The position numbers were made by a program, and so were the translations under genes. From NCBI GenBank assembly GCA_023511995.1, contig JAIMAL010000018.1, positions 1 through 54,450 on the forward strand: a stretch of DNA of 54,450 bases, given 5' to 3'. Under the pieces are notes generated by a model. That model was not told where the DNA came from and searched no databases. It worked only from the letters and a program-made list of their open reading frames with translations. This stretch comes from Burkholderiales bacterium (GTDB taxonomy: Bacteria > Pseudomonadota > Gammaproteobacteria > Burkholderiales > Thiobacteraceae). Below are positions 1 through 54,450 of the stretch, in pieces (the stretch's first letter is position 1; the number at the start of each line of letters is the position of its first letter).

Positions 1-80
1 TGGGCTCGTCGCCCGTGCGCGAATCTGCTCGAAACCCGGCTCGCCATCATCGCGCGCCCTAATGACAAATCTGGGTTTAA
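1..80 (-). repeat. Truncated copy of a 239-bp dispersed repeat element (window edge)
   Basis: Read on the minus strand, these bases match the first 80 bases of the complete element at 49977-50215. I see one internal difference (GAGC here, GAAC there) and a small change at the outer end (TTAAACCC instead of TTTAACCC). The outer end carries the terminal motif CTAATGACAAATCTGGGTTT. The rest of the copy lies outside the window. No coding capacity is apparent. Confidence 0.9.
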
Positions 81-49826: not shown

Positions 49827-49942
49827 CGGCAGGCATCAGGGGTCAGGGGTGAGGGGTCGGAAACTGTACCGACTCCTCCGTGGCTTCCCCTCTCTGCCTG
49901 TCCCTTCGGGCGCATGGTAGGTTTTGGGGTTTGGTTTTTGCA
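49827..49942. repeat. Diverged ~115-bp direct repeat, left copy
   Basis: This copy shares, in the same order, the blocks GGCAGG, CAGGGGTCAGG, AGAAACTG-like, CTCCGTG, CCTCTC, GCGCATGG and TTTTGCA with the right copy at 50820-50934. Identity is patchy. The two copies bracket the 239-bp element and the toxin-antitoxin genes. No coding sequence is apparent. Confidence 0.55.
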
Positions 49943-49976
49943 CGCGACATGTCTGCTGCCCTTGCGCGGCGCTCCT

Positions 49977-50215
49977 TTTAACCCAGATTTGTCATTAGGG
50001 CGCGCGATGATGGCGAGCCGGGTTTCGAACAGATTCGCGCACGGGCGACGAGCCCATAGCGAGGCCTATGGGTGAGGAGCACGGGTGCGAAGATGCCGAA
50101 AGACGGCCGCCAGGGCGCGCGCAGGCGGGGATGAAATAGCAACGCAGATGCGATTCGACTCACCAAAGCGCCAATCGAAGGCACAGGCCGGCCTAATGAC
50201 AAATCTGGGTTTAAA
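49977..50215 (+). repeat. Complete copy of a 239-bp non-coding repeat element with terminal inverted repeats
   Basis: The ends are inverted: the left begins TTTAACCCAGATTTGTCATT, and the right end read on the other strand begins TTTAAACCCAGATTTGTCAT. This gives arms of about 23 bases with one mismatch or indel. Partial copies occur at both window edges with near identity, showing that it is dispersed. The interior is GC-rich; the open frames across it lack start signals and recognisable domains. It is MITE-like in form, but no transposase or clear target duplication is seen; a short TTTAA may be shared at the ends. It lies 67 bases upstream of the antitoxin gene. Confidence 0.85.
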
Positions 50216-50234
50216 GTGGGCCGACGGACCCATT

Positions 50235-50266
50235 TGGTAGAATCGTCTCTCATAGACATGCGAGAC
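50235..50266 (+). promoter_or_regulatory. Promoter and palindromic operator of the toxin-antitoxin operon
   Basis: An extended -10 (TGG followed by TAGAAT, 50238-50243) is followed at once by an inverted repeat at 50245-50266 of form GTCTC-N-CAT-N4-ATG-N-GAGAC, perfect in all paired positions. The AGGAGG ribosome site (50271-50276) and the antitoxin ATG follow. The layout fits autorepression by the antitoxin or antitoxin-toxin complex. Confidence 0.7.
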
Positions 50267-50281
50267 TGACAGGAGGCACTC

Positions 50282-50536
50282 ATGGCGCATATTCTTTTAA
50301 GCTCGGTGGCAGCGAGCATCACCGAGCTCAAGCGCGATCCCATGGGGACCGTGGCTGCGGGGGAGGGGGCGCCGGTGGCGATTCTCAACCGGAACGAGCC
50401 TGCGTTCTACTGCGTGCCGGCCGAAGTCTTCGAAGCGCTCATGGAGAAGTTGGAGGACCTGGAGCTCAACGCCCTTGCGGATGCCCGGCTGAAGGACGGT
50501 CAGCCGCTGCGCCGGGTCGGGATCGATGAGTTATGA
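50282..50536 (+). CDS. Phd/YefM (StbD-like) family antitoxin
   Basis: The 84-residue protein has an N-terminal Phd/YefM-type DNA-binding part (ILLSSVAASITELKRDPMGTV, then GAPVAILNRNEPAFYCVPAEVFEALMEKLEDLEL). A charged, probably disordered C-terminus should wrap the toxin. It is preceded by AGGAGG and a palindromic operator, and overlaps the toxin gene by 11 bases. It neutralises the toxin and probably represses the operon. Confidence 0.93.
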   Translation: MAHILLSSVAASITELKRDPMGTVAAGEGAPVAILNRNEPAFYCVPAEVFEALMEKLEDLELNALADARLKDGQPLRRVGIDEL

Positions 50537-50813
50537 GCTCGCTTTCCACCCGGCAGCCTGGGAGGAGTGGAACCGCCTGGACCGGCCGATCCGCGAGCAG
50601 TTCAGGAACAAACTCCGGGAACGCCTTGAACAACCCCGCCTCGCCTCGGCACAACTTGCCGGACATCCCCATCGCTACAAAATCAAGCTGTGGGCAGCGG
50701 GCTACCGACTCGTCTATGAGGTCCGGGATGGCGAGCGGCTGGTCATCGTCGTTGCCGTAGGCAAGCGGGAAAGAAACGCCGCCTACACGACCGCAGCCAA
50801 GCGGCGGACGTGA
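50526..50813 (+). CDS. RelE/StbE family mRNA interferase toxin
   Basis: The 95-residue protein matches RelE/StbE: YELAFHPAAWEEWNRLDRPIREQFRNKL, HRYKIKLWAAGYRLVYEVRDG and the C-terminal VVAVGKRERNAAY. RelE toxins cleave mRNA in the ribosomal A site. Basic residues expected for activity (KIKL, YRLVY, GKRE) are kept, so the toxin is probably functional. Its ATG lies inside the end of the antitoxin gene, so translation is coupled. Confidence 0.94.
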   Translation: MSYELAFHPAAWEEWNRLDRPIREQFRNKLRERLEQPRLASAQLAGHPHRYKIKLWAAGYRLVYEVRDGERLVIVVAVGKRERNAAYTTAAKRRT

Positions 50814-54370: not shown

Positions 54371-54450
54371 TTTAACCCAGATTTGTCATTAGGCCGGCCT
54401 GTGCCTTCGATTGGCGCTTTGGTGAGTCGAATCGCATCTGCGTTGCTATT
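54371..54450 (-). repeat. Truncated copy of the 239-bp dispersed repeat element (window edge)
   Basis: Read on the minus strand, these bases match the last 80 bases of the complete element at 49977-50215 with no internal difference that I could see. The outer end begins TTTAACCCAGATTTGTCATT. The copy runs off the window. It lies 67 bases after gph, in a gap with no gene. Confidence 0.9.

Follow-up and report, generated by a model that had tools for sequence, protein, structure and literature searches.

Bacterial MITEs are usually viewed as ends enclosing filler. The IS1380 family of insertion sequences is among the described systems closest to the element reported here, and has in common with it the type of end, beginning CCC, and a 5-bp AT-rich duplication; for IS1247, a family member, PMC3281130 lists a DR of 5 bp. 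In distinction to the members of this family, the present element is a MITE without a transposase, which shares the ends only and carries a hairpin. MITEAba12 (PMC6382973) and the MITEs of Coxiella burnetii (PMC5896051) are likewise small and non-autonomous and have inverted ends; our element would differ from them in an interior fold which covaries across genera and is common to more than one end type. REP repeats, which go with REP-associated tyrosine transposases (PMC2817692), are also many-copy palindromes, whereas here target duplications and the ends of a DDE-type insertion sequence are found. No description of the element or of its hairpin was found in the open-access literature, with partial coverage and ISfinder excluded.

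The window, i.e. the whole stretch of 54,450 nucleotides which was analysed, is the entire contig C18 of a host genome of 2,507,758 bases in 44 contigs. It contains one full MITE copy of 228 bp (49982..50209, + strand) with perfect 18-bp terminal inverted repeats, the left one being CCCAGATTTGTCATTAGG (49982..49999, + strand) and the right one located at 50192..50209 (- strand). The copy is flanked by the target duplication TTTAA on the left (49977..49981) and on the right (50210..50214), neither assigned to a strand, so that the 239 bp originally reported are composed of the element, both duplications and one further base. The interior consists of a core hairpin (50000..50122, + strand) and of a right arm (50123..50191, + strand), which shows little conservation across genera and to which a resembling sequence persists in 113-bp forms on contigs C7 and C1. 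Both ends of the window fall inside further copies, the contig cutting a left-end fragment (1..75, - strand, flank TTTAA at 76-80) and a right-end fragment (54376..54450, - strand, flank TTTAA at 54371-54375). The original prediction of a repeated element with inverted ends, present as one full and two edge-cut copies, is thereby upheld, the 19-mer end motif occurring four times in the window and never in 100 shuffles. It was equally right that the interior holds no convincing gene: a stop-free frame common to all 26 aligned elements was not found, and of the frames open over at least 55 aa the most frequent was present in 12 of the 26.

The element is short, has no transposase gene and has perfect or near-perfect inverted ends. 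An IS1380 insertion sequence proper was considered for the repeat and rejected, given 228 bp and no frame common to the 26 elements. Comparison of sequences makes it very probable that we are dealing with a non-autonomous MITE, which would depend for its movement on a DDE transposase of the IS1380 family, supplied in trans and belonging to the CCCARATTNNYCATTAG-end subgroup, that acts on its ends and inserts it mostly at TTNAA with duplication of 5 bp, and whose interior hairpin would be maintained by selection on one strand while single-stranded, be it RNA or ssDNA. The identity as a MITE of the IS1380 kind is close to settled, and the MITE reading of the original prediction is thus borne out and made specific by the type of ends and the 5-bp target duplications.

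The interior, at first taken as unremarkable, turned out to be a conserved, covarying and strand-biased hairpin, formed by element positions 19-141. The window element folds better than its shuffles (z -8.70 as RNA, -6.95 for the other strand and -6.9 as DNA). For comparison we used an alignment (A2) in which 26 elements represent ten genomes and one plasmid, eight being from genome G029 and four each from G000 and G044; it contains 25 of the 42 distinct elements collected plus L047, whose left end is one base out of register. Left out were seven near-duplicates from G044 (L055, L062, L132, L137, two in L143, and L186) and ten elements which had an incomplete core or were too diverged (L012, L013, L067, L068, L071, L082, L104, L145, L148 and the second element of L002). 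In the consensus structure, predicted on the same alignment on which it was scored, 95.0% of the cells pair and double changes are found in 30 of 52 pairs, including seven in the terminal repeats, where one transposase may drive both ends. Double-change cells number 201; shuffles, which ignore relatedness, give 72 +- 6, and slid controls no more than 41. Rfam 15 gave no match in the window at 49900-50300 up to E 1; in eight related loci it gave three matches, all below gathering, one of which lies on a hairpin (MIR1033, 26 bits versus 70).

Within the hairpin, two tandem G.A mismatches follow one another with a Watson-Crick pair between them, the 5' side being CGACGAG (50046..50052, + strand, A2 columns 65-71) and the 3' side TGAGGAG (50073..50079, + strand, A2 columns 93-99). 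Over the 26 elements the order is G.A (25/26), A.G (24/26), the Watson-Crick pair (C-G in 13, G-C in 12), G.A (22/26) and A.G (26/26). Tandem G.A pairs of this kind would be sheared. The mispairs of the core are unequally distributed between the strands, G.T outnumbering A.C on this strand by 64 to 20 and G.A outnumbering C.T by 164 to 5 (43 facing positions chosen by geometry), in cells which come from related sequences and with a consensus fold computed on this strand. These mispairs are the stable ones, and read on the opposite strand they would become A.C and C.T; we read this bias as selection on a single strand.

The same MITE could also carry a hairpin which is a functionless by-product, its palindrome being maintained as replication switches templates within hairpins. 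Long palindromes readily undergo such correction, the bias extends beyond the core, since the mispairs of the terminal repeats lean the same way (G.T 19 versus A.C 3), and the 113-bp forms on C7 and C1, from which the core hairpin is absent, have perfect duplications, so that the hairpin may be dispensable for movement. Correction should, however, erase mismatches, yet the tandem G.A pairs are kept at the frequencies given above, while the Watson-Crick pair enclosed by them switches between C-G and G-C and the core mispairs favour one strand. We consider this explanation unlikely, and retain the reading of a hairpin selected in single-stranded form, the conserved covarying fold, common to elements with different ends, suggesting that it itself does something.

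Searching the order with a model built on the core, we detected the hairpin in 33 of 399 genomes, host included, and in 23 of 159 genera; in a sample of the class the model finds two other genomes of 274, both weakly, and in the sister species it gives no match despite 30 end-like sites. Outside the training set there were 28 matches in 26 loci (A4), two of them being the reverse strand of loci already included; pairing is 93.9% in an alignment fitted to the structure, and there are 185 double-change cells, in 28 of 32 pairs, where shuffles give 59 +- 6 and slid controls no more than 40. The tandem G.A motif is retained in some of these further loci, and A.C or other mismatches are found in others.

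The end types were counted by eye in 38 loci obtained with the core model, four of which are the host copies. A CCCAGAT-type end is found on at least one side in 24, CCCGGATA-type ends in six, ends related to the latter in three (L293, L294 and L296), and AGGAGCCTGTCCGGGAAA ends in five loci of G552 and G662, which have weak scores only (genome E 3.7e-5 to 7.8e-4) and are possible hairpin carriers. Of the first six CCCGGATA-type elements two have CTAG on both sides (L292 and L299), as have four of ten further elements of this second group, the other six not. The tandem G.A motif is different in most loci with the second end type. When 17 second-group elements, which had been found with the hairpin model and include the three with related ends, were aligned alone without the model (A5, leaving out L330 and L297), the same long hairpin was obtained, with double changes in 26 of 41 pairs.

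The ends of the second group match a different IS1380 subgroup (L094, L105, L107 and L119), the L094-type elements having CCCGGATATTTCA ends; the transposase of this subgroup in the sister species has 27% identity to the G077 transposase described below. Elements with CCCGGATATTTCA ends (L094, sister species) were considered as partner of the window's MITE and rejected for their different end type. In G029, a CCCAGATTGTCCATTAG end is immediately followed by an IS1380 remnant that has CCCGGATATTTCA ends (L097:1413-1940). The hairpin was not found in 28 IS1380-bearing loci except for one nested MITE. Found between both end types and not in the IS1380 elements, the hairpin would, judging from these comparisons, be older than the end types or move between them. 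A wider proposal, which we put forward tentatively and hold to be somewhat short of an even chance, is that the hairpin would be a functional module, a strand-specific RNA or ssDNA with two tandem G.A motifs, travelling between MITEs which use different transposases (IS1380 at TTNAA, IS1380 at CTAG-like sites and possibly a third with the AGGAGCCTGTCCGGGAAA end type). If this were true, such MITEs would be parasites of transposases with a conserved structured payload aiding persistence or movement. Here the supposed filler of a MITE is a conserved part, covarying, keeping non-canonical pairs, strand-biased and recognisable despite changed ends and target, which raises the testable question of gene-less elements carrying functional folds that aid movement, persistence or tolerance, and IS1380 elements with matching ends are now identified for testing.

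The 239-bp query matches 10 of 100 related genomes, host included. End-like sites are abundant in G044 (184+188) and G029 (58+53) and fewer in the sister species G001 (16+14), with zero to two matches for the reversed control pattern in the genomes surveyed. Genome G029 is probably Sulfuricystis multivorans J5B, since the end motif is found at the same coordinate on its second contig and on plasmid pSTJ1. The short forms of 44-122 bp in G044 were not accepted as a separate class, as eight of the ten read contain NN and they resemble full elements with assembly gaps. Such NN gaps are seen inside several elements of G044 (L308-L315), suggesting that the hairpin or the repeat hinders sequencing or assembly there.

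Alignment of flanks, one of the checks which the original prediction had proposed, was carried out on 41 of the 42 collected elements, i.e. those with both flanks available (the flank of L143:1679 being too short for the count). Identical 5-bp flanks were found in 32 elements, 27 of which have TTNAA, and the other nine are one base off; random re-pairing of the flanks gives 7.4 +- 2.4 identical pairs with a maximum of 16 in 2000 trials. The proposed search for an empty site also gave a result. The IncP plasmid pYKBU009 carries between kfrA and kfrB a 171-bp relative flanked by TTAAA, and its flanks, joined with a single TTAAA, occur uninterrupted in plasmid pUO1. Precise insertion is directly evidenced for this 171-bp relative and not for the window copy, for which the upstream gene is alignable with the sister species and the downstream region is not. 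The plasmid search with the 239 bp gave no match and that with the end gave three records, the third of which (Acetobacter aceti, E 7) is probably due to chance; scans of IMG/VR with two versions of the end gave no match with either.

A profile search with PF13701 for transposases of the IS1380 family gave matches in 50 of 300 genomes of the order, 42 of them above the family cut-off. The G077 transposase, IS1380 by NCBIfam with 273.9 bits, belongs to an element with ends CCCAAATTTYCCATTAG and with duplications TTCAT and CTCAT in the two copies read, and is matched in 35 of 399 genomes, distant matches included. Elements with CCCAGATTTTCCATTAG-type ends are found in G383 and G078, with duplications TTAAT and ATTAA, and a decayed one with the same type of ends and no exact duplication in G218. 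The MITE-rich G044 has two IS1380 fragments in which an upstream end CCCAGATTGTCCATTAG, adjoining TTGAA, precedes the transposase match by about 160 bp. When named genomes were scanned for ACCCAGATTTGTCATTAG, in a collection which may omit genomes near that of the window, 71 stretches were obtained, the majority from MAGs with the titles Chlorobiota, Melioribacter or Bacteroidetes and two from a Nitrospirae MAG; four of the 71 have an IS1380 transposase match in the DNA fetched, two of these of only about 50 aa. One stretch (L262), from a Proteiniphilum MAG, contains a complete IS1380 element with a 441-aa ORF and, on both sides, the first 17 bp of the MITE's terminal repeat (17/17); its direct flanks are TTAAA and ATTAA, an inexact duplication at the position cut. 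By eye, MITE and IS1380 elements have only the ends in common, so that an origin of the MITE by internal deletion is no more than conceivable.

A single clade (support 100/99) unites the five long transposases associated with the MITE end type, for one of which (L161) only one end was seen; it sits on a long branch apart from the transposases with CCCGGATATTTCA ends, in a tree where L117 is on a very long branch. MITE-like elements with nearly the same ends are also found in Bacteroidota/Stygiobacter (L209, L216, L269, L215 and L218); they have an internal CTAATG..CATTAG palindrome, also present near an end of several IS1380 elements, and by eye are without the core hairpin. The original prediction allowed for a transposase elsewhere and suggested a search for one with matching ends. 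In the 44-contig host assembly no transposase matching the MITE was found, the G077 transposase giving no match and PF13701 a single weak one below threshold. A transposase in its own genome is dispensable for a MITE mobilised in trans from elsewhere, and movement would have taken place while the transposase was present, which may since have been lost or may have been imported temporarily, e.g. by a plasmid. A REP/BIME-like element dependent on a RAYT (Y1) transposase, or some other class of repeat, would account for the palindromic and repeated nature, and is made very improbable by the precise 5-bp duplications, the empty site and the 17-bp ends, which an IS1380 element has in identical form.

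The genome-wide count of copies, also proposed earlier, gave 31 alignments in the host, which reduce to four copies of full length, seven fragments at contig ends and a number of relatives that are diverged or shorter (C7, C1, C14, C17, C4, C25 and C3). The full-length copies are located on C18, C2, C22 and C6 and have pairwise global identities of 83-98%, the one on C6 having one decayed end and flanks that mismatch at one base. The C18 and C2 copies are the closest (98%), the remaining pairs having 83-87%. That one locus was duplicated through recombination or gene conversion instead of transposition, as the near-identical C18 and C2 copies could suggest, is scarcely credible and need not be assumed, because copies are dispersed with differing flanks and duplications (TTTAA, TTAAA, TTCAA, TTGAA and ATTAT). 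The distance of about 50 kb between copies, to which the original prediction referred, says little about genomic spacing, as the edge copies are contig breaks.

The contig-end fragments comprise four left and three right ends, each of 77-80 bases including element and flank. Their flanks pair up, TTCAA being shared by C15 and C30 and TTAAA, in the element's direction, by the left end of C18, C40, the right end of C18 and C31, while TTTAA on C17 has no partner; from this pairing we infer at least four additional copies hidden in gaps of the host assembly. The end motif with up to two mismatches has 16 matches in the host genome, and since all of them fall within these elements nothing seen points to a collapsed insertion sequence having such ends; a looser end pattern has 19 matches, three of which were examined (L072, L083 and L093).

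In two places of the host, adjacent elements share one duplication, TTAAA on C2 (L002:1739-1966) and TTTAA on C17 (L015/L007), as if a new copy had entered the duplication of an old one. A 37-base piece that matches the right end of the element is found at L016:1501-1537 (C25:23430), within an apparent coding sequence whose frame is putative. For 28 elements the orientation of neighbouring frames, upstream/downstream and by an ORF calling too crude to draw on, is +/- in 10, +/+ in 8, -/+ in 7 and -/- in 3. Next to the window copy, at 50282-50813, are a gene with a match to Phd/YefM antitoxins (31.4 bits, cut-off 29.8) and then one with a match to ParE toxins. The Phd/YefM gene starts 67 bp past the right duplication, and the element may sit near the promoter of this pair; two promoter-like matches near the gene overlap its start codon and are little informative.
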